A stretch of 64,000 bases of DNA from Lophium mytilinum. Lineage: Eukaryota; Ascomycota; Dothideomycetes; Mytilinidiales; Mytilinidiaceae. The DNA lies in the NCBI GenBank assembly GCA_010093605.1, contig MU004181.1, positions 1,054,001 to 1,118,000 on the forward strand. The letters are read 5' to 3'. The notes beneath the pieces were generated by a model. That model was given only the letters and a program-made list of their open reading frames with translations. It was not told the origin of the DNA and made no database searches. The position numbers and the translations under genes were made by a program. This document shows, piece by piece, positions 5,033 to 56,500 of this stretch; position 1 is the stretch's first letter; every line of letters begins with the position of its first letter.

Positions 5033-6778
5033 TCAAACATGCAAACTCCCAATACTCTCCACAACCACCTCAAAACTCGCGCTCCTAAAGTCATCCTTCA
5101 GCAACGTCGCGCTCGTCGGATAAAAATTCATAAGCTGCTGCCCCTCCCCCCACTGCGGCCACTCCGTCACGCCACTGCCCACATTCGGGTCCAAGTGGTG
5201 CACAAACGAGAAATAATACGAGTGGATCGACGCGGACGCGTAGTTCGGCAGGATCCCGTAGAAAACCTGGAGGAGGTCGCTGGCATGGAACGTGCCCAGC
5301 ACGGGGGTCCCGTAGTCGTAGCTGCTCAGGTACGACCAGCTCGGCACATCCGCGTTCACGGCCGTAGCGGTGGTCAGGAACGCCCGCCGGCTGAGCGTGA
5401 AGGTGAGGTCGCCGAGAATCGCGGCGAGGCGCTTGAACTGCGGGTACCAGTTCCAGAGGTCCCCGGTGCGAAAGGGGGAGCCGGCGGAAGCGTCGTCGGG
5501 GTAGGTGGCGACGAGGGCGGAGATTTGCGCGGGCGAGGCGTCGGCGAAGAAGATGTTGGCGAGGTAGGCTTCGAGGTCGGCGGTGGTGGAGAGGTTGGAT
5601 TGGAAGAGGGCGAAGATAGTGCCTTCGTCTTCTTGGTCGCCGATGATGAAGGGGACTTTGGCGTATTTGCCGGCCGCGATGAGGGTTTCCGGAGAGGCGG
5701 TTAGTGCGGAGCCGTCGGGGCGCGGGAGGTAGGAGAGCGAGACCGAGTTGTAGGAGAGGATTCCTGGGACCGAGTTGGCGGCGTTGAGAAGGGTGGTGTA
5801 GTCGACTTCTCGGAGGCAGGCGAGGGTGTCGCTGGCGGATGAGCATCCGGCTGCCTTCACGACAGTGTCGTAGACGACTTGCCCCTTAGGACAGTCGACT
5901 GGGTCAGCTGGGACCACGGAGCCGGAATCCATAATGCCGGCTCTGAAGAGAGGCTTTCCCTTGTAAGTGTTATCGCCATCGTACAATGCCATTTGATCCA
6001 GGACTGATATGGCTCCTGCTGACTCGCCCCAGATTGTAACTTTCTCAGGGTCTCCTCCAAAAGCGGCAACATTGTCTGCGATAAATTGCAATCCCAGCCT
6101 TTGGTCCAGAAGTCCCAGATTCGCTGAGCCATCGGCCAGGATCTCGGCACCTGGTAAGAATCCGAACCCTCCTACGCGGTAATTGACTGCAACGAATACA
6201 ACAGGCTTGCCCTGAATGACTGAATCTCTGACCAATTGAGCGCCGTCATACATCAATGACGATCCGAGCTCAAATCCGCCGCCAAATCTTATATCCTTGT
6301 CAGTGAAGCTTCGCTGTGGCAAATCTTGATCTAGAGAGGAGACATCTTACATCCAAAAGAGTACTGGTAGTTTTGAAGAGACAGTGGTTCCTTCAGGTCG
6401 AATAACATTGAGAGTCAAGCAATCTTCTCCCGCATTAGTGATGGTTTGGAAGAGCGGCAAGTCGAGTAAAGTCCCAAGTATCGAAGTAGGAAATTGGCTC
6501 GTGTCAACATCGAAGAAGAACTGAGGACACGCTTTTGCAATTCCTGTTGCGCTAACTGTGCCTAGGGGCGAGTTCAATGCCTGCGGTGGCTTAAGACGCA
6601 GGTGGCCCACAGGAGGCTGTGCGAACGGAATACTATTGAAGATGTCTACGCCGAGAAGATTTGATCCCACAATGGTGGCTTGGGGTGATGCGATGCTGAC
6701 CGTGGGAACGCCTCGTTTTGCGGGTGCAGCGTTTACAAGGGGAAGGACAATCAAAAGAACTGAGAAGAATTTGAACAT
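5033..6778 (-). CDS. Secreted type-B carboxylesterase/lipase (alpha/beta hydrolase)
   Basis: This is a secreted ester hydrolase of the cholinesterase / Candida rugosa lipase family. Exon 1 is 6778-6351 and exon 2 is 6287-5033. The 63-bp intron uses GTAAGA, and splicing restores [11 protein letters not shown], the family oxyanion-hole motif. The product is 560 residues. It begins with a hydrophobic signal peptide ([17 protein letters not shown]) followed by a KR dibasic site. The nucleophile elbow GESAGA has its Ser near residue 232. The motif GDQEDEGT supplies the likely acidic residue and FHASDLL the likely catalytic His. EDCLTLNV is the type-B signature 2. An in-frame ATG 13 codons upstream (6817) is possible, but 6778 gives the clean signal peptide. 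Substrate is unknown. Length matches the family and no lesion is seen. Confidence 0.93.
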
Positions 6779-15341: not shown

Positions 15342-15700
15342 GTCTACCCCTACGGCTAGAAGGTTATAGAGAGCGTAAGTGATAATAATTAAGCCTGGAA
15401 TTGGATGATCAAGACATAATTACTGCGTCTTTCGTTCTCCCCAATACATCTCTCTTTCGAATTCCATGGGTTGCCATAATGATACTCTCTTCTTTCCGCC
15501 ATTGACACCCAGTCCGTTCCATTCGAGGATTAAGTCTTTTTTGTCATTTTGCCTAAGCTATAGAGTGACTATGGCTAAGCCGTACAAGGAGAGGTTGCAC
15601 TAAAGCACCCGAAAGAAGGGGATTTACACCCCACCGCTCCAAACGTTGGTGTTTCGGTCCTACTCTGCTTAACCGCAATAGAAAGGTGCGCCTGTATTAG
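15342..15700. promoter_or_regulatory. Promoter side of the DUF4470/MYND gene, up to the RIP boundary
   Basis: This is ordinary-composition sequence between the MYND gene start and the abrupt switch to CA/TG-depleted sequence near 15700. No gene is seen. Confidence 0.45.
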
Positions 15701-17399
15701 AGAGAGGCCATTAAACTAAGTATATGTAATAAAACTAATAACCTATTTACCTATAAACTTTCTATATCCGCTAAACCTTCTATATCTTCTATACTTTCCA
15801 AGCCTTTACTATTACTGTCGCTGTTATTATTATTAAGCAGGCACGCCGGCCTAAGTTAATGCTTAATTTCTCTTAGGTTCTGTCCCTATATTAGCTTAAA
15901 GGTTTCCTTATTATTCTCTTTACTTCTATAGCGCTTAGCTATGCTTAATATTTAATCTACTATAATTTACTTAAGTATTACCTTATAGTAATAGGTGCGT
16001 GCCGCTATAGGGTCCTAGTATTAGTTCTATATCTTAAAAGAGAAGCTTAGGTAGGCTTTCTATAAGCACTACACAGCATTTTAAAATAGGGTAAGCTATT
16101 ATCTTACACCCGCTTTTAATAGTTAGGGTGTTATAATTATAAAGATAACTAGCTTATTAAGATCTTAGAGTACTATAAATAGTATATTAGCATCTAGGCG
16201 GTTTTATATAGCGTAAGCTTCCGCCTATACTATAGTTACTACTATATATTTATACTATATATATTTTATTATTAGGTTAACGCGGTAGATAGAGTAGAAC
16301 TAGAGTTATTCCTCTATCTAGTCTAGCCGGCTACCTGTATGTACTCTACTATAAAGTAGGCGCTAGAAAAGGTTGCTAACTTTTAGTACTAATAACGCAC
16401 TATATACTAGCCGCTATAGCTTTTAGAGTTATATATCTAGTTATATATTCTACTTATAGGTATCTCTAGAACCTTAGATATAGTAGCTAAAGTTATATCT
16501 CTTTAGGCGTTTATCTAGCATAATTTTATAGGCCTTTCTATACGTTATTTTAGCTAGAGGAGATCCATCTTAAAGCTTAAATTCCGGGCGTACTTAGTCT
16601 AGCGGGTACTAGTGTCTTATAGTTCCTATCTTAAGCGCTATTTTCTATGCCTTAGGTAGTAATATAATTAGGCGTGTAATAGCTATTTTATACTATTACT
16701 ATTATATATTAGTTATCCCTTATAGAATTATTAGTATCTCTTTATAGGCGTTTTAAATATCCCCTAGATATCTAGCTCTATACTTCTATAGTGCCTTCTA
16801 TACACCTACTCCCTATCTTATTATACCTATTCCGGGGGCTAGCTAGCTAATAATATTATAGTACTAGATATATAAGTTAAGAGCTTCTATACAGGTTTCT
16901 AGTAGTACTATTCTAATAAACTTATCTCTCTAGAATCTAGGTCTATTTATACCCTTCTATCTAAGCTAGAAGCTATTAAGTTCTAGTAATAAATTCTAAA
17001 TATTTAGAAGGTGTTAGAACTAAGGCGTAAGTATAGCTTTATAGAGGATAGTCTACTAGGTAGATAAGGCGTATATAAAAATATCTTTATATAGGGTAAC
17101 CTAAGGTAGTATTAGTTAGGTAATAAATCTTTATACTAGGGCTACTATTAAGGTATTAGCTATTATTTATAGGTCTATATAACCTATACTACCTTAGTCT
17201 AGCCCGCTGTAGGCGTATAGGTTATTAATTATGCCGCACGCTTTATCGTTCTATATTAGGCAGTAGTACTCCTTCTCTATCTTTTAGTGGTCTAAGACTA
17301 TAATAGTTAAGAATTAGAGCGCGTATCTAGGTAGGGATATTATAAGGGTATTTATAATAAGCACCTGTTCTTTTATTAATATATAGAACTAGAGCTAAT

Positions 17400-18441
17400 A
17401 GGCTATAATTATTTAGAACTTTAGAATTATTTTACTCTAGAACACCTCTAGCTGCTATTTTATATTAATTCTAACTAGTATCCCTAAGTGCGCGTAGGGG
17501 TTTTCTAGTAATACCGGCTAGATATCTAGCAATTATATGCCCGTTAGACATACTTCTAGCAGGAGTGTCTTTTTTTAATTTACTTTAGCACCTAAGGCGC
17601 GTTTATAGCGTACTAGGAGCTCTATTAGAGTATCTACTTTCTACTAGCTATAGAGAATTACTACTGTATTATCTATATACAGCATGGTTTTTAGATAAAG
17701 GGTATTAATCTAAACGCCGCTTATGTGTAGGTCCTATAGGATACTTTATGCGAGGCCTTCTATTATAATTAGAAATAGTAGGTAGCTAAGTAGATTGCCT
17801 TATTATACGCCGTAGAGAATATAGATAATCTAGCTAAGGTACCCGTTTATATAGACCTTTAGTTTTGCACCTTAGTATAGTACTTATACCTAGGTAATAA
17901 AGCGCTATAGAATACTAATATATTATATTATTACCTATATATACTTATAGCTAACTTAGTTATATACTTTCTCCTAGTCTAAGAATAGAATAGCTAGAGG
18001 TTTATTTAAGGGGCGGTATTTTATAATTAGATACTAGATTATCCTTATATTATTATTAATAAGTTAGTTAGGTAAGAAGGTAGATTAGTATACTCTAATC
18101 GCCTTACCTAGTACCTTAACTAGACGTTATATAAGAATATCTATAAATAGCTTATAGTCTATATTTATAATTAATAGCGGGCGGTAATTTAGTAGTATCT
18201 AGTTATTACCCTTTTTAAATAGTATAGTTAATATACCTTCTATCTAAGACCCTAGCATTATATTACGCTGGAGGATTATATAGTATACCTCTATTAATTT
18301 AGCTATAATTAGTGGTAATAGTTTATTTCTATGCTGGTAAAGAAGAGCCTTATAAAACTCTGTAGGAAGTCTATCGCCGCCGGGTAACTTTTCTAGGGCC
18401 GCCCGTTTAATGGCCTTGCAGAGTTCCTTTTCTATTAGCAC
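17400..18441 (-). pseudogene. Fossil reverse transcriptase of the LINE
   Basis: The longest open remnant is 18441-18244. It holds KLPGGDRLPTEFYKALL, which matches the conserved LINE reverse-transcriptase finger segment (normally around a Pro-Asp-Gly, then lP.EFYK). About 235 codons further, at 17668-17679, is YIDN in the context LYIDNTVVIL. This is the expected place and context of the YADD/YIDD catalytic box, with its second Asp changed to Asn by a G-to-A change. The intervening frame is interrupted by many stops. Confidence 0.72.
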
Positions 18442-19149
18442 GCATATAAGCTAGTTAGCCTCTTCTAGACTTATATAGGTCTAGATATATAATAGAAGCT
18501 TCTTAACTTTATCTGCGTCTAATAGCTTTATACTATATAGATCTTTATAGAAGTCTATAGCTACTTCTATAATTTTAGTCCCGCTTATATATAGAATATT
18601 ATATTTATCTCTAAGGCCTTTAATTTTAGCTTACGCGTTATTATTTTAGGCTTTAGAGAAGAATAGTCTTATAGGTCTTTTATTAGTAAGTATATGCTTT
18701 ACCTGCGCGTTATATATATAGTTTTTATAGTGCTATTCTTCTAGGCACTCTTTTTAGGCGTTTACTGCCGCTATTCTATCTTTAAGCGCTAGGTTTATTA
18801 CTCCCGGGCGTTGTTTTTTCTAGAGTCTCTTACGCTTCCTCTCTAGTATCTATTTTAGGCGGAACCTAGATTTTACTAACTTCTATATTTTATTACTAAG
18901 GACTTCCTAAATAGTTTACTTATAGTCCTGCCATTCTATAACCGGGTTGTTTCCTAGCAGGCTTTCTAGAGCCTTAATATAAATTATTTAGATGCGCTTT
19001 ATCTTTATTATTATTAGACTTAGTTACTATCTACTAGGCCCTTAGTTAGTAGCTTTAGGTAGTTAGTATATAGTAATAGTAGTGTAGTAATCTATAGATA
19101 GCCCTATAGGCTTTAGGTCCTATTCTTTTATATTACGCAGCTAGTCTAA

Positions 19150-19830
19150 CTAAATATAAATCCGGTCTATCCTTAATATGCTAACTTTATTTTAGTAGAA
19201 GGTAAAGGCTATAGTATTAGAGTTACTATATTACTACCTATCTACTATTTTACATTCTCCTTCTATAATCTTAATTAATCTATGCATTATAGTTATATTC
19301 TATGCGGGCGGGGTAAGAAGGTTATACTAATTAATCTTTCCGGCTATCTTGTTCTAATCTCCTTCTATTATGTTATAGCTAACGGGTAGGTTTACTGCTC
19401 TAATAGCGTATACTATCTAGATAAACTATAGAAGATAGTTAGTTTATTCCGCAGGGGGGTATATATTACTAATAATAATTTATATATTTTTACATTATAT
19501 ACTATAAATTAATAGGCGTCCTTCCGGGTTATTAAATAGGATATAGTCGCCGTTAATAGGGTTCTAGGACATAGTATTAGTATTAATAATAATAGTAATA
19601 CTATAGCCGCGCGAGCCCTCTTTTATACTTAACGCGATTTATAGAGCTAGAAAGTTATATTTATATTCTAAGTATAGCTTCTTAGTAAGAAGGGCTTCCT
19701 AGATTAGTATAATATTAGTCTTTTTACTTATTATTATTTGCGATAGTAATTTAAACCGGGTAGAGTCTTTAACTAACTAGATATTTTATAATACTATAGA
19801 CATTCTAAATATTAATTATAATAGGGTTTA
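19150..19830 (-). pseudogene. Fossil AP-endonuclease region of the LINE
   Basis: On the minus strand from about 19805 a single frame reads for about 100 codons if TAG/TAA are ignored. It includes TNIILI-stop-EALL followed by KEGSRGYSITII. This matches the IxxxQE metal-binding motif of the exonuclease/endonuclease/phosphatase fold, with the Gln codon (CAG) turned to TAG. It sits upstream of the reverse transcriptase as expected in Tad1-type LINEs. It is badly decayed. Confidence 0.6.
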
Positions 19831-20599
19831 GTTCCGCCGGCAGTAATATAAGTATACTGCAGGGGCTAACGTTTAAAGAGGCTGGAAGTAACGCTTTAAT
19901 AAGCTGGCTACACCCTAAAACCGGGTGGTTTCTTAGTAAGTTTTTATATATTGCGCACCTATTTAAGGTTAAGTCTACTATTCTAAACTTAGCTAGAAAT
20001 AGAGTTAAGTATCTAGGGTTTAGCTGCCCTAAGGAGACGCTAAACTAGTAGATATCTAGAATCTAGTTAACTACTATAATTATATTTCTAAACCAAATTC
20101 CGCGCATTTCTTGCACGCCTAGCTAGATCCCTATACCTTTTATCTTAAAAGACTTAACTATAGCTACTACTTCTATAATTTTAGCTATAGGGTATTCTAA
20201 GATATAGTTTAAAATAAATATATAGGCACCCCTACTCTTAAAGAGCTAGATATCTATAAGGTAGTTCTAGAGTAAAATTATTAAGCTAGAGAGTTTCTTA
20301 GCTACTTTACTATCCCTGCATTCTAGAATTTATCTATTAGTGTTGTGCCTAAAGGCTTATTAGACGTCGCCCAATACTATAAGGTCTATAACAGCGTCCG
20401 TAATATCTACTAGTTATAGTAGTGCTGCGCCTTATTCTCTTAGTTTCTATAGTAACCTAAGGAATAGATATCTACTATTAGTAAAGCGGACAGGTGCGTT
20501 AGATAGAACCCTACAGGCTGCCCTTTTAGTCTTAACTTTCTTAAAGCGTAGTAGTATTACTAGTATTTTTACTCTAGCTATAGCCTTTCCCTTACCTTT

Positions 20600-21850
20600 T
20601 TCTTTAGGCTTAGAGACTTCCGCTATAGCCGCTTTTTATTAAAGAACGCGTATAATAAAATTAGGGTTTAGTTAGTTTAGGTAGAGGTAGAGTTATTAAA
20701 GATATAGAGGGATAATTCTTAGGTCTATTCTATTTAGTAGCTCTAAAGGAGCTAAAGTAAAGCGGGAGCAGGGTAGAGGTACTAGTTAAATCTTATAGCG
20801 GAGGGGGGAGCTAAAGTCTAGTCTAGAGCGGCCGCGTTTAGCGCTCTATTATTAGGTTTACGTATATGCTCGTTCGCGTTTAATAGATAGAGTAGAGGCA
20901 GAGGAATCTAGAGTATATATTTTATACTAGGGGGATAGTAAGTATAGTATTAATAGAGTAGGTATTTAGAAGGGGGTAGCTTTTTCTTTATACTTAGTTT
21001 TAGCCTTTTTCTTTCTCTTTTTCTTTTTCTAGCGGACCGGCACCTTATTGCCCGGGGCAGTCCTTTTAATAGCTATAGAGGATAATTCTCTAGTATCTAG
21101 ATTACTACTAGAGTTACTATCTCTAGAGAGCCGCATTACTATTACTATTACTTTATTATCTTCTATATCTAGTAACCCGGGCGCTTCCTCTATTTTAGCG
21201 GGTGCCTCTTAGGGTGTTGCCCCGCTATTACTTATTACTATATCTTTAGCCGCCGCCTTTACTTTACCTTTCCCTTTCCCTTTAGTCTTATCTTTATTCT
21301 TATCTTTATCTTCTTTCTTTACCTTTTTATTTACCTTCTTATTAAGTTTACGTTATTTAGGTAAGGGGAGAATAAGGTTTAAGTAGTCTTTAGTCTAGTG
21401 TAGACTGTTGCATTTTTAATAAGGTTTAGAGGGAGAGAGTCCGGCTTTATAGTTAGCGGCTACTTTAGCACATTTAGTTTTCTTATGCTCGCGCTTTACT
21501 AATTTAACACTTTACTTACATGCCTTAGTATAGGCTTTTTAGTTAGTAAAGTCCTATATATTATCTATCTAGTTAAAGCGCTTACTAAGGCCTAAGTTAT
21601 TATTATTAAGGTTTATATTACTAGCTTCCGTGTTTAATTTAAGGATATAGTTAGAATTAGATTTAATAATAATAATATTCTTGCGGTTATCTATAGTGGA
21701 CGCTATAGAGGGGGATATACTATATAGTATATTATTAACTAGCTAATTTATACTATTAGAGGTGTCTAGTTATTCTATACTAGACGTAATAGTAGAACTA
21801 TCTATAGAAGTAGTAATAGGTATATTTAAAGGCATTTAAGTAGTTTAGTA
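20600..21850 (-). pseudogene. Gag-like ORF1 remnant of the LINE
   Basis: The minus strand between about 21550 and 20950 reads as a Lys-rich, low-complexity protein (long KDKNKDKTKGKGKGK-type and poly-Lys runs at 21300-21250 and 21035-21005). A short Cys/His cluster precedes it near 21480-21400 and could be a decayed zinc knuckle. Position at the 5' side of the element fits ORF1. The zinc-knuckle reading is tentative. Confidence 0.4.
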
Positions 21851-38774: not shown

Positions 38775-41364
38775 ATGGCAGAGATTGACATTGCTCCCCA
38801 GTTTGGAGCCGAGCTGAAGGTGAGCAGCCGCCCCGTCATGCGACCCGCCAAACTGACCCAGTGTGCCTCGACAGGATGGCTTCAAGCCCGTCAACGCCTG
38901 GGTATGTAGACCCCCGCAACCGCCTATATCCTCAGAGTCTTGCGCGACCTCCGAGAAACTTCCTCCCGCACTCATCCGCCCCGACAAACGCTGACGACAC
39001 TCTGCTCAGGTTACCAACGGCATTGCGTGGCTCGATGACATACAGCAGTTCTACCGCGAAAGAAGTTTGATAGAGAAAGACTATGCCGCCAAGCTCAAGG
39101 CCCTAGCCCAGAAGTATTTCGAGAAGAAGGCCAGAAAGTCTAGCAGTCTGAGTGTTGGAGACACTCCTACTGTTACCCCGGGCTCTCTGGAGAGGCACGT
39201 CACCAGGCGCAAACACTATAGCGGACTTTGCTGACGATACATCCACTCCACAGTGCTTCTATGACCACATGGGGTGTGCAGCTCACCACCCTCGAAGGAC
39301 GGGCCTCGGAACACGAAGGCTTCGCCACGTCCCTCATATCCAATATCGCCGACCCTCTGAAGAACCTGGCTACCCGCTACGAGGAGCTTCGGAAATATCA
39401 TGCCGAGTATGCGGCAAAGCTGGAGAAGGAGCGCGATGGCACATATGGGGACCTACGGAAGATGAAGGGGAAGTATGACAGCGTTTGCCAGGAAGTGGAG
39501 AACCGCCGAAAGAAGATCGATTCCTCTTTCGATCATGGGAAAAACAAAGCACGGAATGCCTTCGAACAACAGCAACTAGAAATGAGAAACGTCAAAGTAC
39601 GTCTTCGCCTCTGGCTTTTAGCACTATGCTGACTATTCTAGAACACATATGTGATCACGATCAATGTTACGAACAAGCAAAAGGAGATGTACTACCACGA
39701 GTACGTTCCCGAGCTTCTTGATGTAAGATATGGCTCCATGAACACTATTATGATTGCAGATATTGAAGTCATTCTAGAGCCTTCAGGACCTCTCTGAAAC
39801 CCGTGTGGCCAAGTTGAACACAATATGGTCGACCGCTGCGCAAATTGAAACATCAACCCTGACAAGAAGTACGAGACTTGTCGAACACCTCTCCGGAGAA
39901 ATTCCCAGGAACAACCCATTGCTAGACTCGATGATGTTCGTTAGACACAACGCTGGATCCTTCCTGGAACCGGGAGATTTTCAATTCGAGCCAAGCCCTG
40001 TTTGGTTAGACGACGGCAATGTGGCTACTGATGACGGGGCAAAGGTTTTTTTACGGAACGTTTTAACGAAGAGCAAAGGCCAGTTAATAGAATTTCGCCG
40101 TGAGCTCGACAAGAAAAGGAAGGAAGTCGAGAACGCCAAAAAGGTCCGACAGAACATACGAGATGGCAAAGATAAGCGCGACGAGGTCGAAGTTGTCCGT
40201 GCTATCTTTGCTATACAAGAGGGGATGCATGAAGTAGAGCGGCAGAAGGTGACTGCAGAAGTTGAGGTGTCGACCATCACGTCAAACGTGGGAGACGTCA
40301 GCATCGGGGCGAGCGCGCACAAGTTCAAATCCCAAACATTCAAGATACCTACAAACTGCGATCTATGTGGGGAGCGGATCTGGGGGCTATCCGCCAAGGG
40401 ATTCGACTGTCAAGATTGCGGATACACCTGTCATAGCAAGTGCGAGATGAAAGTCCCCGCAGACTGCCCCGGCGAACAAAGCAAAGACGAGAAAAAGAAG
40501 CTGAAAATGAAACGGCAGGCAACAGCCAACGCTGCAACACCAGCAGCCAACGGAGGCGCCTCGGATTCCCACGGCGACATGCCTCGCATAAACAGAAGCG
40601 ACACAGTCAATTCAATGAATACACTCAGCTCAGGATACTCCGCAACGGCCCATCGATCGATATCTGGTGCTGTGTCACCTACGGATGAGACTCCTCCTGA
40701 AAGAGTAGGAACCGTCAAACCAACGCCCGGCCCTCCTCGACGCAACCGCGTTGTAGCGCCCCCGCCTGCGCAATACATCAAAGACGACGACGACATCGCA
40801 AGCATCGCCGGCTCCTCGAAGGGCGCGGAGCAGAAGGGCAAAGTGCTGTACGCGTACCAAGCGAACGGCGACGGCGAAATCAGCGTGAAAGATGGCCTGG
40901 ACATCACAATCCTAGAACCCGACGGTACACCCTCTATCCCTTCCCCACACACTTCTTACTAACTTTCCACAGACGGCTCCGGCTGGACCAAAGTCCGCGC
41001 CGGCGCCCTCGAAGGCCTCGTGCCAGCCGCCTACATCGAAGCAATGCCCCAAACCCCGCCATCCTCCTTATCCACCATCAACCGCCCGGACTCGACCTAC
41101 TCCGCCTCCTCCGTCTCCCTCGCCGGCAGCATCACGGCGCCGGGCAAGAAAAAGGGGCCCGCGGTGGCGCCGAAGCGCGGCGCGAAGAAGCTGAAGTATG
41201 TGGAGGCGCTGTATGACTATAAGGCGCAGAGCGGGGCCGAGCATGATATGGCGGAGGGCGAGCGGTTTGTGCTGATTAATATGGATGCGGGGGAGGGGTG
41301 GGCGGATGTGGAGAGGGGTGGGGTGACGAAGAGCGTGCCGGCGAATTATATTCAGGAGGTGTAG
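38775..41364 (+). CDS. BZZ1: BZZ1-like F-BAR/C1/SH3 actin-patch protein
   Basis: Bzz1 links membrane curvature to WASP/type-I myosin-driven actin assembly at endocytic sites (family knowledge). The exons are 38775-38819, 38875-38901, 39010-39194, 39254-39596, 39642-39722, 39778-40924 and 40973-41364, giving 739 residues with all phases consistent. The N-terminal FCH/F-BAR (about 1-270) includes IAWLDDIQQFYRERSLIEKDYA. A C1 zinc domain follows at about 408-457 (H...CDLC...CQDCGYTCHSKCEMKVPADC). Two SH3 domains follow at about 583-635 (VLYAYQA) and about 684-737 (YVEALYDYKAQ, ending SVPANYIQEV). The third intron has a GC donor (AG|GCACGT), required to give LESASMTTWGVQ. The layout matches ascomycete Bzz1 in order and size. 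Confidence 0.95.
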
Positions 41365-42089
41365 GGAGGGGAGATGGGATGAGATGAGATGAGGTGGTGG
41401 GGGTTTTTGGGACTGTGGGAAGCGGTTAGCGAGCGGTGAACGGGTTGGATGTGTTTGTCCTGGATGTCGAAGACGCGGGTGCCTTGCACTTCTTCGCTTT
41501 CTTGTTCAGTTTTCTACGGAGCCTAAAATTCGGACCGAGGGTTTGAGTTTGCATTGGTTGGCTAGGGGCAGACTTGTGTTTGGCGGATGATGCTGCATTG
41601 TGGGGTTTCTTGTTATTCAAAGGCTCTTGATAGATTATGGTTTCGATCCTTCACCTTGTTTTGATCTCAGTGGGGGTACTAGTAGTGTTACTGCACCGCT
41701 GTCGCTGTCGCTGATTACGAACCCTCCTTGGCTAAGTAAACCTTTCGCCCCTGTGCCCCTCACCATCTGTGGAGATATATAAGGGCCTTCTTAGGATACA
41801 AGTAGCAAGGCTGAGCTTTGGTTAGTATGGCGCTTCAACTAGGCAAATGAAAACCTGAGCCGGTTCTTACAGGCAATTCTGCGTAAATCAACTTCGAGCC
41901 TTTCCGAATCGCTATGCTAACACGCACGGAACAAATCGCGTTTGCCACCGTCTGGGAAAAGGAAAACGTGAAGATGTGAGATAATGACGTCGCTGCAGAA
42001 ACGGAAGGGAGAGGATCGGAGGCCTTTCAATTGGTATGTACTGCTATCCTTTTGATTCAGGCCCGATTTAGGCGAAGGTTTCTGGGGTC
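41365..42089. other. 3' flank of BZZ1, includes a short GATGA microsatellite
   Basis: A GATGA-type microsatellite lies just after the stop (about 41372-41397). The rest shows no gene. Confidence 0.45.
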
Positions 42090-43800
42090 TTTTGGCGAGC
42101 GGTGGAAAACGGGTCGAGGTTTGTGGGTTCGGTGGAGGCGCTTCTGCGGGAAATGAGCGGAGGGTTGGGGAGAAGTCTTTACATGTCGAACTGCGTGAGA
42201 GGGGTTAGTTGGGCGCGGAGGGCACAAAAGGGGCTACGTGGCGTGGTTACTTTGTATGACAAGAAGAGCCTTTGGAAAGGGCTTGTAGATTAGGTCGCCG
42301 TTTAGAGGGTAAGGAAAAGATGTTGGAGCACTCCGGTAGACAAAGGGTGGGCTTTTGTAGGAAGTTGTTACATATCGAACTGCGGAAGACGTTTCTTAGG
42401 GGACGCCGAGGGGTATATAGAGGGTTATTTTTGGATACTATTCGACGGAGGCTGGGAATCAGGTCGGCGTTAAGAGGATGTGGGAAGGCTGCTGAAGCAC
42501 TTTTGGAAAGGATTTACAGAGCTTCGTTACTTCTTTTCTTATATATAACCGCATAAGATGATTCTTACTATATACAGAGGGTACGCGGAGGCTCCGCTGA
42601 ATAGTTGTGTTTAGCTACGAATTGGAAGAGCGTGTGAATTAGGTCGACGTTTAAAGGATAGGGGAAGGTTGCTGGAGCACCTCCGGAAAGTAATAGCAGA
42701 ACTTGGTTGCTTCTTTTCACATTTGTAATCGCGTGAGGAATTTGATGTTAGACTTGGAGGGCATACTGCGTAGTGGCTTTTGCTACCCGGAGAACGACCT
42801 TGCAAATCAGGTCTGCGTGGAGAGGATGAGGACAAGGAGCTAGGACGCTTCGGCGAACACATAGATTTGTTTCGCTACAAGTATTGACATATCGAACCGT
42901 GCAAGGTATTTCTTATTAGACGGAGACACCACGCAGAGGCCTTGTAGGATAGGATTTTTTTATAACGAGAGGAACGGGCCTGCAGTTTAGACCAGCGTCT
43001 AAAGAATGCTAAAAAGCTGCCGCGGCCCTTCGTGCAGAAGTGGTGCCCCTTTGTTGTAAGTTGTTACAATTTGAACCGCATAAGTCCTTCTTTAGTAGAG
43101 ACGGAAATCACGCAGCGTGCACTAAGTGTAGTAACTTTTACTCCGCAATTGGAGGTCTAAAATCAGGCCGCCGTCAAGAGGATAATAGAAACGTGCTGGA
43201 GCTCCTCTGCAACGAGGTTGGGTCGTCTGGTGACAAGATGTTACATATCGAACCGTACAAGGACTTTTTTCATAGGTAGGGAGGTCAGGCAGTGTGCACT
43301 AAGCGTAGCTTCTTTTAGTCCAGAATTAGAGGCCCTGAATCAAACTGCTGTTCAGAGGATGTTGAAAGCGTGCCGAGGTAGCGACGTAAAGAGATTGGGT
43401 CGTCTGGTTGCGAGTTGTCACATATCGAACTGTATGGATAGAATTTTCATAGACGCAGAGGATCAGAGCCCCTGGATTAGACTATCGCCAAAAGGATAAA
43501 GAAAAGTTGCTGGTGCCCCTCTGTTAAGGGCCTTATCTGTCCAGTCATAAGTTGTTACATATTGAACCGTGTCAATGGAATTCTAATAGACGCAGAGGGG
43601 GGTTAGATGGCACACTACTTGGTCCTTTTACCTCATGATTAGAGCACCTCAATTAGACAGCCGTCAGTAGGATAATGAAATGGTTGTGGAGCTCGTCTGT
43701 GAGTTGATTGGTTCGTCTAGTTACGAGATTGCTTATATCGAGCCGTGCTGATGGAAGCTGGATAGAGACGGAGGGTACATGGGGAGCACGCTGCGTGGTT
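42090..43800 (+). repeat. Tandem array of about ten diverged ~177-bp units
   Basis: A landmark close to TTACATATCGAACCG recurs near 42179, 42368, 42539, 42717, 42885, 43064, 43241, 43418, 43555 and 43732. The gaps are 189, 171, 178, 168, 179, 177, 177, 137 and 177 bp. Two further blocks recur in each unit. One is close to TAGACGCAGAGG, after the landmark. The other is close to AGAGGATAAGGAAAAGTTGC followed by TGGAGC, before it. Units are strongly diverged but clearly related. They hold only short open frames. In frames 177 bp apart (59 codons) a peptide like LHIEP recurs, so decay from a coding repeat is possible. I do not recognise the family. Confidence 0.82.
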
Positions 43801-46293
43801 CTTTTGCACAATGCAAGAGTTGGGATCGATGTTCTGGTTCTCGGAAGTACACGATCTTTATAATTGCCACGTTCAGTCCGGCAAAGTAGTTGCCATGCCG
43901 GAGCCTACAAGAGAGGGGTATGCCAATGAAGCCGAAGAGCTTTAGATGGCTACTTGACGGGAAACCTACCGCGCATATCCCGTGGAACACATTTACCAAG
44001 CCCATGAAGCGGGAAGACGTCGCAAACTTGCGGGTATTGACACCGAGACACTAGGGAGATTAAAGTCCGACATGCGGTGACTGGATCGGTCACTCATCCT
44101 ACAGTATTATTTTTTGGACCAATGTTGTGCGATATTTGCAGATAGTGCCGTTACCAGTGGCTACCGACCATCACGCCATGCAGCATGAAGTAGCATTTGC
44201 CGCGCGTTGGCCATGTTCGTGGGTGCCGTTTGCTTTTCCCGGAGTGGCACGAATCGGGCGCTAGAAGGTCGACCACGTTCCACTCGGCACTTTCGGTCGT
44301 GGCAGATATTACGCCGGGACGAAGGCGCTGGGCGGGGAGATGAGTGTCGACGAACGAAACTAAGAGGGATTGAGGCTGACAGTTGATACGGAGTGAACCG
44401 GTTGCTCTTAGAAAAATGTTGTACTCACAGCAAGTACACCTACATACATAGTTTGCCATGGCAACTTCCATATTGGAGCGATGAGCAAGCGTTACCTGTA
44501 TTCAAAAAGGCCAAGGTACGCAGCTGAAGGCACAACCATACCTCGCGATATGGGCGGCTTCTAGTAGAGAGCAAGCACAACACCAGCCTAGGTACGCCTA
44601 GCCCATTACGAATCGGGAACCCAACGAATCGTGGGACCTAGGTTGCCATGACCCCCGGCTGCGGAACGCGTGGTCCCTTTTCGTTGAAGCAGAGACAGAA
44701 CACAAGCACAGAGCGACGTTGTGCGACGAGTGCCGGGCAGGTGCAGGCCACATGCAAGAGCCGTGATGCAGATTAGGATGACGTGGGCGCGAGATGAGGA
44801 TGGTCGAGAGCTGCGAGGGGTTTTGCGGGGAGGGTGAATTGGGACCCAGGAGGCCTGTCCTGCTCCCGCCCACACACAGCGAGTCACAGCCGTGGCCAGG
44901 CCGAGGATGAACGAAGCGCAATTTAGGCCATCTCGAAAACGGTCGGTAGCCTCGACGAGCTGCCGAAAGGAGCGCGCGCTGGCAGAGATCGCTACGGGCC
45001 CTGTCTTATCGCGCGACTCCGGCGGACGAGGCCCCTATTGCGACAAGGCTGCCGGCGATCGCTCTCTTGGACTGCTGCGGGCGGGGCGGTGAAGTGTCTG
45101 ACCATCTCGGCCCTCGCGAGGTGGGATGGGAGGGGAGAGGACGGCATTCCAGCTCGCATTCCTTCTGCGGAATGTCCAAACGTCGCAATTGACGCACAAA
45201 CAGGGTCCAGAAATCGGACCTTTCCAGCGCAGGTACGCTGCCGACGTGATTGGGCCGTGGGGAGGCCTTGAACGACGTCGGCTTGCCGACTCCACACGCG
45301 GGTTGCTGGTTGGCCGGCAAAAAGGCCCGCTCCTTGGAGATCGACGCCTGAATGCCTGTCGGCATCGATGCTGCAGCCTCAACTCCAACCCTGGCCCGCG
45401 AATGTCACGATACCCTCACTTGCCACCCGCGGGCTACAAGCAGCCGTGTCGCACACACAGCCGTAGAATGTTCTCACACGACGGCCTCGCGCCCTCACCC
45501 GCTGGTGCTCTGCGCCGAGGCCACGCCGCTGTGCCATGTCGCGGGGATTAAGTAGATACGATGTTTTCTCGCCCTCCAGCTTCCGGCTTCTTGCTAGTCT
45601 GCAGCACCCCCATTGCTGCCGACGCTCTCATTGACGCTGCAATTACACATGCTGCAATTGACGCTGCCAACGTCCAATTCACGCGCCCCAGATCCATTGA
45701 CGACTGGCGATTCACGCGCGGTGCAGCCTCGCCCTCATTTGCTTCCTGAATCCCACTGCCAACGAGACCACCGCGGCCGTCTGCTCGCCGTGGGCGCAAT
45801 CACGCGCTCCCGCTCTGATCCAATCTCGTTCGTGGGCGGCTGTGCGTCCACTTTGTGCCCCCGGCCCCCCCTGTCCAGCGTGTTTGTTTCCCCTGACGCT
45901 AGCCCCGGACCGGCCCACTCATCTCGCGCCCTCAACACCTCGACTCTCCCTCTCCGTCTCCTCTTCCATGCTGTAGTGCAAGGTCAACCTCTTCATCGCG
46001 ACACACCCGGCCGCATTGTTTATTCGCATTCCACCAACTCGGAGCCTAGTCTCCCATTCACTCATTTGGAACGCCTTGTATCGATAATAATATCGAAGTC
46101 ACTCGTTCACCGCTACACCAAGAGACCAGCACCCTTCAATTCCCGCCTTGCCAGCCTCATCTGAACGCTGACAATACTTCCGGTCAGTGCTGCGTGTTTG
46201 TCTTGCGCAATTGTCCCTCCTTTACTGAACCGACTCCAGCTCCTGTCAACAACAACTGTCGCTCACGCCCTCTAATACCACAACACCGTCGCC
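43801..46293. other. Gene-poor region upstream of the SUN-family gene
   Basis: About 2.5 kb. Open frames here lack domains and overlap on both strands. The segment from about 45900 to 46293 is C/T-rich and probably carries the promoter and leader of the gene at 46294. Confidence 0.45.
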
Positions 46294-47680
46294 ATGAAGT
46301 TCGCAACCGTCGTCCTCTTCGCGACCGGCGCCATGGCTGCCGCCAAGGTCCATCGCCACCGTCACCGCCATGCTCCCAATGCTCTGCTCAATCGTGAGGC
46401 CAATCCCGATGTCGTCACCGTCGTCGTCTACATGCTGGACGGCGTTAAGATCACCGAGGAGGAGTGCCAGGAGGGCATCAAGAACGGCACCCTGATCTGG
46501 GGTGACGACGGCGCCCCAGTGGTTGCCTCCTCTCCTGCCTACACCCCCATCCCCACTCCTACTCCTACTCCTACCCCCAGCTCTGCTGCCGTCAAGGTCG
46601 CCGCCTACTCCCACCACTACGTCGCGCCCTCCAGCGTCGTCGTCTCGAGCGCTGCGCCTGCTCCTTCCGTCTACAGCGGAGGAGGAGGAGATGAGTCCGG
46701 GAATGTGGACGTGCCCTTCCCCACCGGCCTTCCTTGCTCCAAGTTCCCAGAGGGATATGGTGCTGTCAAGAACACCTACATGGGTCTCGGTGGATGGATT
46801 GGCATTCAGAATCCGGGTGGAACTGCCATGGGAGTCAGCGGCCAGTTGGGCTACACCGACATTGCTACTATCCCCAAGGGCTCTTGCGAGGATGGCTCTT
46901 GCGTCAAGGATGGAATGTTCGTTTCCTACAACTGCCCTCCCGGGTACGCCAAGTCTTCGTGGCCCAAGATGCAGGGTGCCACTCTCCAGTCTGTGGGCGG
47001 TCTGCTCTGCAAGAACGGCGAGCTGGAGCTAGCCGATGGCGCTATTGCGAAGACTCTTTGCGTGAAGGGTACCTCTAAGGTCACCGTCAAGGTCCAGAAC
47101 AAGATGGAGAAGTGCTCCTCCATCTGCAAAACCGACTATCCTGGTAATTATTCCATCGCGAAGTTATTTCAAAGTTTCTTTACTTACATGATCAGGTACC
47201 GAGGGCGAAACCGCGGGCGTCTATATTCCGTCCGGCGAGACACAGGAGCTTTTCTGCCCCGACAAGACCGAGTACTACTTCTGGGACGGCAAGGGAACTT
47301 CTTCCCAGTACTATGTGAATCCCGCCGGCTATGAGCCGCAGGACGCTTGCTGGTGGGGTGCTCCCAACAAGCCATTGGGCAATAACGCTCCCATGAACAT
47401 TGGCGTGGGATACAACCCTGGCGATGAGAATGCCTACATCTCCCTCTTCCAGAACCTGCCCACTAACCCCGTCGACTTCCTCGACTATACCGTGGAAATT
47501 ACCGGTGATAACCTCAGTGGTAAATGCAAGTACTCGAACGGCCAGTACTGTGACGGCGACAACTGCAATACCGGAGCTGGATGCCTTGTAAGTTGACTCG
47601 ACACCAAACCTTTCTAATGCATGCTAACGTAATTGTAGGTTGCCTCGCGCGGAGGTGAGGTCCTCATCGTCCTCTCATAA
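46294..47680 (+). CDS. SUN-family secreted cell-wall protein (SIM1/UTH1/NCA3-like)
   Basis: Exons 46294-47143, 47196-47587 and 47639-47680 give 427 residues. A signal peptide (MKFATVVLFATGAMAA) is followed by a His/Arg-rich stretch. Next come a short acidic segment and a low-complexity Pro/Thr/Ser linker (PTPTPTPTP near 90). The Cys-rich SUN domain occupies about 145-427. It includes PFPTGLPCSKFPEGYGAV, YNCPPGYAKSSWPK and YYFWDGKGTSSQYYVNPAGY. SUN proteins (GH132) are wall-associated beta-glucan-active or binding proteins involved in septation and wall remodelling (family knowledge). The last exon has only 14 codons including stop (VASRGGEVLIVLS). CT-rich leader and good codon use suggest high expression. 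Confidence 0.93.
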
Positions 47681-49230: not shown

Positions 49231-50944
49231 ATGGCGTCTATCTCACTCGGCGAGATCGCCTCAATCACTAAGAAAGCGGTCGAGATCATCAGCGCGCTTG
49301 CATCTGCGCCTGCGGATTTGCGGAAGGCACAAGTAAAGGTATGTACTATCACTTTCTCGATCTTCTTAAGCACCTCTTCTCTCAAATCGCCCATCTATCC
49401 ACCGCTTCCGCCCTATGCCTATCCTCCCACCCTCCCATTCCAGACCCATCTATCTATCCACCTCCCCCTTCCCCTTCTTCTCTCCTCCTCCTAACCACCC
49501 CCCAGGTCTCCGCCCTAAAAATCTACCTCTCCGCCATCTCCCGGGAGCGCCACAACCCCGCCTCCACCCTCAACAAAAGCGCCTCCATCCGGCGCGACGC
49601 CGAGCTCCTCCTCGGCTTCTGCATGGCCCAGCTGGAATGCGTGCACGCCATCAGCCGCAAGTACGCCGGCAAGGGCGCCAGCATGGACCTATGGACGCGC
49701 ACGAAGTGGATTGCGGGGGACCGGCAGGCGTGGGCGGAAGCACTCAGCGAGCTAGAAGAACTACGAGTTGAGCTGCGGGAGTATGTTAGGGATGTGAGTG
49801 CGGCTTTTCCTACCTACCCTCCCTGTTTACTCGTTTCTGGTTCTGAGGGGGGATTGTGGGTGTCTTGGTTTGTCCCACCCGGCTGATTACAGGGTGACAG
49901 GTGTGTATTGGGGTTATTGGGGTGAACGCGGTCGAGGCTGCGTTGGATGAGACGGACGATGAGGAGAAGGCGGTTAGTACGGCGATTGCGAAGAAAAACC
50001 GGAAGCATCCCGGGCGCGCTGTGTCGGCGGAGGAGCGCGCCGAGTTGGTGCAGTTCGCGAAGACTGTCACCGCGCAGCGCAAACCCGCCCCCAATCCCAC
50101 ACCCAACAACAACAGTGGTGGTGGTGGCGGTGGTGGCTCATCCGCAAAGCCAAAACCGAGACCCGCCGCCAGTGCGCCGCGGCTGGAGTGCTGGGTCCTC
50201 CGCACGAGATCCTCGCCGACGGGCGTGACGAAGACGTGGAAGCAGGAGAAGCGCGCGCAGTGCACGTTGCGGCAGACGGCGAAGGAGCTGCGGGAGGCGG
50301 CGAGCGCGAAGACGATTACGACGGGGAGCGATGAGGCGGTGGTGACGTTGCTGAAGGCGAAGAATGCAGGGGAGAAGGGGGCGGAGAAGGCGAGGTGGGT
50401 GTTTGTGGTGGGGAGGGTGATGCAGAGGGGGTTTGTGGGGTTTGGGCTTGCGGCGACGGAGACGGTGATGGTGGTTTTGAGGAGGGAGGTGGCGAAGGGG
50501 AAGGGGGGGAAGGGGAAGGATGCGAAGGGGAAGGATGCGAAGGGGAAGGAGAAAGATACGAAAGGAAAGGAAGCTAAGCAGAAAGATGCCAAGGAGAAAG
50601 ATACGAAAGAAAAGGTTACTAAAGACAAAGATGCCAAGCAGAAAGATCCTAAAGAGAAAGACGGAGACAAGAAAGGCAAAGACAAGGAGGAGAATAAGCC
50701 AAAAGCACCTCCTGCACCCAAGAAACCGCAAGCCGATTGCCGCTACGGCTCAGAGTGCACAGCACTAGACTGCAGGTACAAGCATCCGCAGCGCGGGCCA
50801 TGTCGGTACGGCGAGGATTGTTATAACGACAAGTGTGGTTTTGAGCACGGGGTGCGGCAGTGCAAGTTTAAGGTGTGTCGGAAGGCTGGGTGTACGTTCA
50901 AGCACCGGGCGGGGCAGAGGGGGAAAGTCAAGGATTCGACGTGA
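49231..50944 (+). CDS. CCCH zinc-finger protein with Lys/Asp repeat tract
   Basis: Exons 49231-49338, 49506-49793 and 49901-50944, all phase 0, give 479 residues. Residues 1-140 are helical (MASISLGEIASITKKAVEII, then KIYLSAISRERHNP) and resemble the N-terminal part of fungal NACHT/ankyrin-associated or STAND-type N-domains, without a clear family match. A Gly/Asn linker follows (about 195-215). A highly charged tract at about 330-400 is built of 5-6-residue GKDAK/EKDTK-type repeats. The C-terminus has three compact CCCH-like fingers: CRYGSECTALDCRYKH, CRYGEDCYNDKCGFEH and CKFKVCRKAGCTFKH, of the Nab2/ZC3H14-like type. It is probably RNA-binding. The DNA of the charged tract is purine-rich and repetitive, so copy number may vary between strains. 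Confidence 0.82.
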
Positions 50945-53518: not shown

Positions 53519-56500
53519 CCCCTCTCTGGATCGGAGCGGTGGTGGGTGAGCCTCTTTGGTCGTAGTGCGCGCATGTTGAAGAGCTCTTTCACTCGGTGGT
53601 GTAATTTGCCTGAGGAAGCCTGCTTGCCCGAACGCTGCTGGCCTGAGGCACTAACACTTTCCGCCTTTGCACCCTCAGCGGCCTTTGTAGGGATATAATA
53701 CGAAACACCCTCAAGCCTAATGTTTCTCCAAACAGTAAGCCCCGGTCGAAACGCCAGAGCAATAACGAGGATGATGAAAGCGGTGATTGCCGTAATAATC
53801 ATGCCAATCAGGGTCTTTTTTACAGGAGCAGCACTCATGCTGAAGATGCCGGTAGCAAAACCTAGTGGAAGGAATATTACAGTTACGTAGGTGAAGAAGC
53901 GGACATTCTCTGCGCTTTGGTAGCTCAACTCGTCTCTTGTAGAACTAGACATGCGGTCAAGTAATAGTCTTATCGACCGTATGTCGGCAAGACAGTGCTC
54001 TAGATCCCGGATTCTCTGATTGTTGGACGCGGTAAGCTTGGCAATAACTGACCGGTATTTCCTCTCGTCGTCCCTCGTCCATCTGGGCCGTTCAAGCTGA
54101 CGCTCGCTATCTCGATTTCTCCATAATCCAATGTTCTCTAAATTTTCCTTCAAATCTTCCTCCATGACTTGCAGAGTATATTGGAAAGCTGGCCACTTTT
54201 TTCGGAAGACCGAGTAGTCGTCCGTATTCATGGGAACCGACAGCAAAGTGTGCAACACTAGGAGGGTGTTCGACGTGTTCGTGTTGGCAGCTGTTTTGGC
54301 ACGTGGAAAGAGGCGGCTGAGTCGTTTACCCGTCTCCTTAAACATTTCATTATACCGCTTCTCGATCTTTTGGAGCATAAGGTCGAACAACAGAAGCTCT
54401 AATACCTTACGCTGGCGCCACGGCTCTTTGTCTCTCTCAAAGTGAGACAGAGTGCCCCTAGGTTTGATTAGGTCGTTGAAGCGCGCTAGCAGGTCATCTC
54501 TTTTGGCTGCGCTGAAGAATTGAGCCCGCTGGGAGTCTTCCTTTGGCTCATGTTCAAGAACGTGACAAGTCCAGTAGCGATCGAAAAAGTCCCCAACAAA
54601 TCGAAAACCCGTGCCCGCTCTCCTCATCACCATGTCGCCTCCCAGGAATTTAAGGTCGCCCTCCTTCTCGCCTTCCTCTACTTTGAAGACTTGATAAGAG
54701 GATAAATGCAATTCAGTTCTCCAAAGGTTCGAAGTTGCTATCACTTCGTCGAAGAAGTGTTTTTTTTTGCGATCGTGCTTGTAGAAAAATTGCTTTAGGC
54801 ATTCCCGTTCCCCTTTCGGAGATGCAAGATTACAGCATAGCATTTTCGTATCGCGATTAGGATTAGGTAGCCAGATGAACCTTTTCTTAGCGTGCTGTGC
54901 CGTTCTAGGAGGTTTTAACACGTCGTAGATGCTCTGGTTGCACGAGACTTCGAATGCGTTCTCTTGTGGTTGATAGCGGCCTGTTCCGGCTGACTTCGGA
55001 ACATCGACGATTACGCCTCTCAGCATTGTGTCTTTGTGATCAAATTCCTCACACAAGCCAGAGTTGGAGTCCAGAAATTCGGGATAGTCGTACAGCCATT
55101 CATCTGACAGCTCAAATATGCTTTTTTCATCAATGAGATTGTTGAATGGTAATGACTTCCTCATCTCCGAGGTCTGCAATGCTTTCCGCGTATTGGCCAG
55201 CAATGGTTGTTCAGCCGTAGAATTGACCATATTCGCTTTCTTCGGTACCTCCACCAAGGTCTGCAATGCTTTCGGCGTATTGGTCTGTAATGGTTGTCCA
55301 GCCGTAGAATTCACCATATTCGCTTTCTTGGGTGCCTTCTCCACATTCGCTCTGCATTCCCAAAGAGTGCAGGGCACTTCAAAGCTCACCCGCCAGTGAA
55401 AGTCTGTCCAGCCAAAGTCGGGTTCTTGACTGCCTTGTTTAAGATTGCCTGGGAACAGTCCGTTCCGCCAGGAGCTTTGAAGCAAAATGTCTTTTGCGTA
55501 GGTGAGCATCTTGGGTGGAGACCTGGTGTTGATTTGATGGCCATTGCTTGCCATCATCATCGCTAATCCGTATTGTAAGGGATTCTCCCATGCCAAATCT
55601 TCATTATCTTTATGGAACCTCTGCGAATCGTTCGTAGCCATCCACATGGTGTCCAAATTGTCAAAAAATGGTGTCTTTGTCGTATAGAACAATGCAGTGT
55701 CCGTGGAATGGAAGAGAAACCTGCTTGCGGATGCTGAGCGGGAAACAGCAATCATCCTCCGCCTCGATACGTTGTTTTCTGTGGTGAACCGTTTTATCAC
55801 CTTTGATTTGAAGTCTGCCGAGTGGTAGCTTTGTTGCAGTAAGCTCTCTTGTGCATGAGGATCAGAGTGTCTATTACGCGGCGGTAGCTTCATTCTGTGA
55901 CTTTTTCCTGTTCTGAGATCCAGAATGCCAAGACTCTCGATAGATAGGAGCGCTCTCCATATCCATACGTGGTCTTCCAAGCGGTATTTCTTCTGTCTTC
56001 GGTGTGATTTGCTCGACGGGCGAGGAATTGCATAAAATCCTCGTTTGTTCTCTAGATCGAGTGCCTCTACCCAATCATGGACACTGCGTCGCAATGACTT
56101 CCGTGGATTTTTGAAAAGTCCCTTGATCTCCTCATCCTCAGTCTTCATTGCGAAATCCGCGAATTTGATGATGTTCAATGGCCAGTCCGATAATGATTTT
56201 AGGCTTAGAACGTCTTTTGAGAACTCATGTGGTATCTTTGCACCTGTAGCCCAATGATTTGCTCCGAGAAGTCCATCCATGTCCTTGGCCTTCCCTTCTT
56301 CCCAAGTCCCAAGCATAATTTCCCTCTGCTCGGTCCAAGTCAGGTGGGCTCGACATGTATCCTTGATTCTACCTAGTAGCGAGACCAAGAACGCCCTTTC
56401 ACAAGCCGATCTCTTGACTTTACGACAGTTACAATTAGCGAGGTCATGTTCCTGCTGAGAACTGTTTTGCTCCTGCTGAGTCTGGAGCTTTTCTTCGAGG

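Follow-up and report, generated by a model that had tools for sequence, protein, structure and literature searches.

A diverged tandem array in Lophium mytilinum belongs to a dispersed satellite-like repeat family linked to gaps between convergent genes

What kind of element is a row of similar units, each roughly 177 bp long, that lies between two genes of the Dothideomycete Lophium mytilinum, and does it stand alone in its genome? The row was noticed in the window analysed here, a stretch of 64,000 nucleotides of contig MU004181.1, by a sequence-only reading which described at least ten diverged units with three shared blocks in gene-poor DNA and proposed a decayed satellite, a nucleosome-positioning array or the relic of a 59-residue coding repeat. 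The array is a real, old and diverged tandem repeat, and it is a member of a dispersed satellite-like tandem-repeat family with no consistent coding frame.

Head-to-tail units were recovered where the array had been proposed, both as direct repeats of ~170-180 bp and by profile search, and the estimate of at least ten units resolves into nine full units and a partial tenth (Table 1). The three shared blocks are genuine (ATYAGGYCG..GT..AGAGGAT, GCTGGAGC and TTACATATCGAACCG). The spacing had been described as more regular than it is, with five of nine gaps at 177-179 bp; measured by the ACATATCGAAC box, three gaps fall in that range, and the block-1 unit spacings are 169, 180, 168, 180, 176, 174, 140 and 176 bp. 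In a self-comparison, which the reading had suggested as a check, shared 9-mers at a lag of 160-200 bp numbered 15 in the array, compared to a mean of 0.39 and a maximum of 5 in 500 two-base-block shuffles; the 68 other window stretches compared averaged 0.87, with 9 at most. Furthermore, leave-one-out searches with nhmmer recovered all nine omitted units (E 5.7e-17 to 3.3e-34), the best match outside the array in the 64-kb window having an E of 2.1. Pairwise identity among the window units is 0.44-0.64, and sites differ in rate (log-likelihood -1223.9, against -1215.5 with a gamma term). Tandem-repeat detection, the other check suggested, was divided, as the direct repeats were found but the array is absent from the Tandem Repeats Finder output for the 64-kb window. 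Because the array is missed by this program and resembles plain intergenic DNA, fungal families of this kind may go unannotated. The description as gene-poor holds locally, with no ORF of dicodon score >=12 in 41361-45552, and ARAGORN found no tRNA genes in the window.

Table 1. Features of the array and its neighbouring genes, in window positions.
Feature	Position	Strand	Basis
Whole array (partial and nine units)	42172..43813	+	Direct repeats, nhmmer, 9-mer lag test
Partial first unit	42172..42260	+	nhmmer E 2.4e-6, seed profile
Unit 2, 169 bp	42277..42445	+	Leave-one-out E 3.8e-18
Unit 3, 180 bp, box degenerate	42446..42625	+	Leave-one-out E 4.1e-28
Unit 4, 168 bp, box degenerate	42626..42793	+	Leave-one-out E 4e-24
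Unit 5, 180 bp	42794..42973	+	Leave-one-out E 1e-19
Unit 6, 176 bp	42974..43149	+	Leave-one-out E 6.1e-23
Unit 7, 174 bp	43150..43323	+	Leave-one-out E 3.3e-34
Unit 8, shortened, 140 bp	43324..43463	+	Leave-one-out E 2.7e-21
Unit 9, 176 bp	43464..43639	+	Leave-one-out E 3e-22
Unit 10	43640..43813	+	Leave-one-out E 5.7e-17
Conserved box, inner part ACATATCGAACTG	42370..42382	+	Family box definition
Further ACATATCGAACTG copies, 0-3 mismatches	42181, 42887, 43066, 43243, 43420, 43557, 43733	+	
Upstream neighbour, ORFs with C1 and SH3, stop near 41364	39805..41364	+	Pfam C1_1, SH3
Downstream neighbour, SUN-family, ~2.5 kb past array	46294..47596	+	Pfam SUN, two adjacent ORFs

The outcome of a genome search for the unit, also recommended by the reading, depended on the method. 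A DNA search with the whole array against its own genome (43.18 Mb, 24 contigs; very common words skipped) matched only the array itself, whereas patterns and an iterated profile uncovered dozens of related arrays. As such, the proposal of a decayed satellite came close, but the window array is one among many relatives that were invisible to the reading. The pattern TTACATATCGAACYG has two matches in the window array and two more on contig C5, and a model built from the sequence of the nine window units alone detects an array at each of the latter (best E 1.4e-14 and 5.1e-6). With looser patterns, matches were clustered and outnumbered those of reversed controls (130 vs 72, 69 vs 9, 145 vs 40 and 20 vs 4); for the 130- and 145-match patterns, the places listed are the first 100. 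The iterated profile, with 22 loci fetched by place and the window, yielded 166 matches at E <=1, of which 153 lie at E <0.01 and 13 at E 0.01-1; all 22 fetched loci have a match at E <0.01 and 21 have two or more, L052 being weak. Nothing below E 2 was found with the profile in the rest of the window or in reversed loci. Among 26 further 3-kb loci taken from the 130-match pattern, 8 lacked a unit, 12 overlapped known arrays and 5 held new arrays (L016, L018, L019, L020 and L033), which were added, while a weak pair, L028, was left out. The resulting sample comprises 28 arrays with 186 box matches, at 2-14 boxes per array.

Four later loci, picked for 3-4 pattern-matched units, all hold arrays, with 8, 8, 4 and 5 profile matches (two of the first 8 overlap). 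Moreover, two degenerate exact patterns matched 79 and 64 times, compared to 2 and 0 for reversed-pattern controls, and combined they mark 59 loci on 19 of the 24 contigs, 25 of which have at least two units by the patterns alone. All 28 of these loci that were fetched hold arrays and the remaining 31 are candidates; since four arrays, the window's included, were missed by both patterns, about 63 candidate loci result. Units of the family are homologous and stand head to tail, and the 28 arrays and four later loci include several unlinked loci with unrelated flanks. One subfamily (L033, L040, L041, L044 and L048) is found across several contigs with identity up to about 78% and mostly carries the TTACATTTCTAACCG box variant, which would perhaps indicate more recent spread. 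Beside the array of L007, at 5958-6095, there are three near-identical repeats 44 bp apart which are unlike the array unit. Among the titles and abstract openings listed in literature searches on fungal tandem, satellite or convergent-gene arrays, no such family appeared, although one may still be in print.

The family is characterised by a box of ~30 bp with the consensus GTTACAAGTNGTTACANATCNAACCGCGTAAA, followed by a T-run and TAGACGCGGAGGG. In 69 long units, box identity is 0.72 within arrays and 0.66 between arrays, where the rest of the unit reaches 0.44 and a letter-shuffled baseline 0.25, although the apparent conservation is inflated because the loci were picked by box patterns and the units also counted by box. 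When units were anchored on their non-box part, 64 of 70 had a box just downstream, its information content being no lower than that of the anchor, which argues that the conservation does not come purely from box-based searching, even if box patterns had guided the choice of the loci themselves. Within the window array taken by itself, box conservation exceeds that of the rest of the unit only slightly (0.619 vs 0.539), and 11 of 137 rotations do as well. The boxes are also polar: adjacent boxes form 132 same-direction and 11 opposed pairs (23 loci), and a single orientation is kept in 23 of the 28 arrays. Mixed polarity is seen in L035 (3164-5836), where seven boxes in one direction are followed by seven in the opposite one, and in L038 (3122-4018), where boxes mostly alternate about 100 bp apart.

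Spacing between boxes falls into classes of ~96-101, 107-110, 120-121, 134-148, 155-157, 163-171, 174-183 and 186-200 bp, drawn from 138 same-direction neighbour pairs within 80-215 bp; outside that range there are also a single 47-bp gap and six gaps between 290 and 779 bp. The 177-bp period is thus one class among several, and by eye the 180-bp class corresponds to the 100-bp class plus a block of ~80 bp that includes AAATCAGG and AAGAGGAT. Because the spacing is spread over such classes and is not fixed near one nucleosome repeat, the earlier idea of a nucleosome-positioning array is unsupported as a common principle. Spacings within 80-215 bp do fit a ladder of ~11.4 bp (R 0.495, matched by none of 2000 jittered sets), but 40 of 2000 sets are as good once the test is restricted to distinct lengths, and 10.5 bp does not fit. 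This ladder is taken only as a lead, because shared ancestry of the lengths could cause it, and an 11-bp period in conservation along the unit was not found (p 0.57 to 1.0).

The family is strongly linked to gaps between convergent genes, to which the window array is an exception. With gene orientation taken from a dicodon ORF caller trained on ORFs >=300 codons, 24 of the 28 arrays were classifiable, as 19 convergent, 3 same-strand (window array included) and 2 divergent, a bias counted in the very arrays in which it was first seen and including several gene calls with low scores (12-17). Using the same sequences and caller, 4 of 31 background gaps >=500 bp are convergent (Fisher 7.4e-7 against 19/24 for the arrays), as are 6 of 36 gaps >=300 bp (Fisher 1.7e-6), these background gaps being few and drawn from the array-bearing loci themselves. 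For a Pfam check, 10 pairs with long ORFs were selected from the 19 convergent ones, and in 7 of these each gene has a family above its cut-off in the assigned orientation. Among the later loci, L056 is convergent and L054 probably same-strand by weak scores, while L055 and L057 are not classable. In L040, L050, L051 and L052, arrays nearly fill the space separating the flanking ORFs. The upstream neighbour of the window array is presumably Bzz1-like.

What might such arrays do? We tentatively favour, as possible rather than probable, the reading that the conserved box of this dispersed satellite-like family is a putative protein site and that the arrays perhaps separate convergent genes as a roadblock or boundary. 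The arrays would have grown by duplication in place, with a degree of spread from locus to locus, the ~30-bp box would serve as a DNA-level site for predicted protein binding, and rows of bound boxes may keep the transcription or replication of one gene out of its neighbour. Such a role is suggested by the convergent setting, the prevailing single polarity, and analogy with RTS1/Rtf1 and Reb1 roadblocks. The box contains three TAAC/GTTA half-sites about 10-11 bp apart, which by motif match would presumably suit a Myb-type protein; the genome has 9 matches to Myb domains, with E up to 1e-5, which is not specific evidence. If the box binds protein, this would amount to a cis-element system that is dispersed and tied to pairs of convergent genes, where collisions of polymerases and of forks have to be handled, and the box and the locus list are concrete, testable targets. 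A bolder version, a genome-wide system in which dozens of polar arrays with one protein-bound box form transcription or replication barriers between convergent genes and the ~11.4-bp ladder keeps proteins or paired helices in register, seems unlikely. In a variant of it, the arrays may be homology-pairing or silencing centres, by analogy with Neurospora RIP, in which recombination-independent homology recognition is described as reading triplets every 11 or 12 bp (PMC4858203).

The convergent bias would also arise if insertions are tolerated only where no promoter is hit, and a neutral satellite that survives only in promoter-free gaps would show it. A neutral or near-neutral dispersed satellite, made by tandem duplication and ectopic spread and with the box simply as its oldest shared part, is nearly as likely as a protein site with a barrier role. 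It would account for the loose spacing of the boxes, the mixed functions of the flanking genes tested (dehydrogenase and vacuolar channel; CoA ligase and thiolase; TIP49 and citrate transporter) and the local kinship of units, which in 69 long units have an identity of 0.555 within arrays vs 0.472 between arrays and in 40 cases find their nearest relative in the same array, against 3.9 expected. The excess of box identity over the rest of the unit between arrays, and the recovery of the box in units anchored outside it, are harder to reconcile with neutrality, though both are partly biased by locus choice. High copy homogeneity, as under concerted evolution, was not found, with 44-64% identity in the window array and the 0.555 given above within arrays. 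A non-autonomous mobile element of MITE-, Helitron- or SINE-like kind, tandemised and decayed yet still spreading pieces of arrays, is decidedly unlikely; subfamilies common to several contigs at up to about 78% identity are what it would leave, but the best 45 inter-locus matches all lie inside arrays and have no common ends, and 27 of the 28 arrays are without a called internal ORF.

The same scarcity of ORFs (the one exception is an edge call in L020) bears on the 59-residue coding relic, whose chance now appears extremely remote: most spacings are not divisible by 3, the units share no common frame, and the LHIEP-like peptides said to recur in frame sit in different frames in different units. 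Two adjacent units are open in one frame for 112 codons at 43161-43499, this forward frame has 20 stops across the window array vs 35 in base shuffles, and, when the core block is taken whole, only 1 of 300 column shuffles equals one of the six frames; yet this best frame does not coincide with that of LHIEP and is displaced by one base at alignment column 57 in eight of nine units, and when blocks are tested singly, 10 and 19 of 300 shuffles do as well as the best frames. The LHIEP frame, tried as a candidate and rejected, gave -0.80 vs -0.66 for column shuffles, 202 of 300 of which were as good. Transcribed non-coding RNA or small-RNA loci are very improbable as well. This possibility was approached with RNAalifold (A1, A2, A4 and the 186 box regions), G-test covariation, folding z-scores and Rfam, and it could draw on the strand-specific conservation of the box, a few arrays whose folding energy lies below that of shuffles (L037, mean z -1.9; L042, -1.5; L036, -1.1), a strongest covarying pair just beyond the box that is 73% Watson-Crick or wobble, and a 4-pair helix of -0.5 kcal/mol in window units. 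Apart from these weak signs, however, the structure tests yielded almost nothing and brought out no covarying helices, and the consensus fold is 0 kcal/mol on the 186 box regions (both strands), on minus-strand window units and on the 100-bp class. Similarly, mean folding z over the 186 boxes is -0.18 and -0.08 vs +0.08 in 124 control stretches, and Rfam gave no match in the window, while in 15 array loci its sole match is a tRNA outside the array.

Several known systems help to place the family. Alpha satellite with CENP-B boxes has a tandem unit of ~170-180 bp with one short conserved protein box, and the window array resembles it in unit length and in having one short conserved box; alpha satellite is centromeric and very long, whereas the arrays here are kilobase-sized and lie between ordinary genes. 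In the beetle Tribolium castaneum, TCAST-like elements form 68 short dispersed arrays near genes, 29 of them in introns, and are related to a major pericentromeric satellite (PMC3411249). Dozens of short satellite-like arrays scattered over chromosomes are common to both cases, with 68 in the beetle and about 63 candidate loci here, but the Lophium arrays lie mostly between convergent genes and have a short box that stands out. In contrast to the pericentromeric kinship of TCAST, the one whole-array search here (very common words skipped) found only the window array.

A parallel for a barrier role would be RTS1 of fission yeast, a replication fork barrier whose four motifs, spread over ~450 bp, are bound by the Myb-domain protein Rtf1, described as specific to S. 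pombe outside its Myb domain (PMC10473836). A row of repeated motifs is common to both cases; here the box carries TAAC-type half-sites, and the one polarity of a Myb-protein barrier array (RTS1/Rtf1 or Sal-box type) is seen in 23 of 28 arrays. RTS1 is a tested barrier at one locus, whereas there are dozens of loci here with a putative barrier role. A pattern for rRNA motifs, probing a link to rDNA terminators or fork barriers, gave no match. In budding yeast, Reb1/Rap1-type roadblocks have high-affinity sites at which a DNA-bound protein stops RNA polymerase II (PMC10310618). The likeness to these roadblocks would lie in the proposed mode of action; their proteins are known, whereas the box here has a putative binder.

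Other parts of the window show different kinds of repeats. An AT-rich block at 15500-21800, with GC about 0.32 and a strong RIP signature (TpA/ApT 1.83; substrate index 0.29), is probably a dead repeat, and its signature indicates that the species has or had active RIP. The corresponding indices are 1.19 and 0.96 in the window array and 0.72 and 1.21 nearby, and across 17 arrays transitions at CpA stand at 0.167 vs 0.119-0.150 in other contexts, values that do not clearly mark RIP as the source of the divergence among units. At 50492-50686, 15-bp-type repeats encode a tract rich in Lys, Glu and Asp, in an ORF whose C-terminal motifs are rich in Cys and His. Furthermore, an 87-bp tandem duplication (1.9 copies, 90% alike) is located at 55170-55337, within a long ORF of the minus strand that has a CorA domain.
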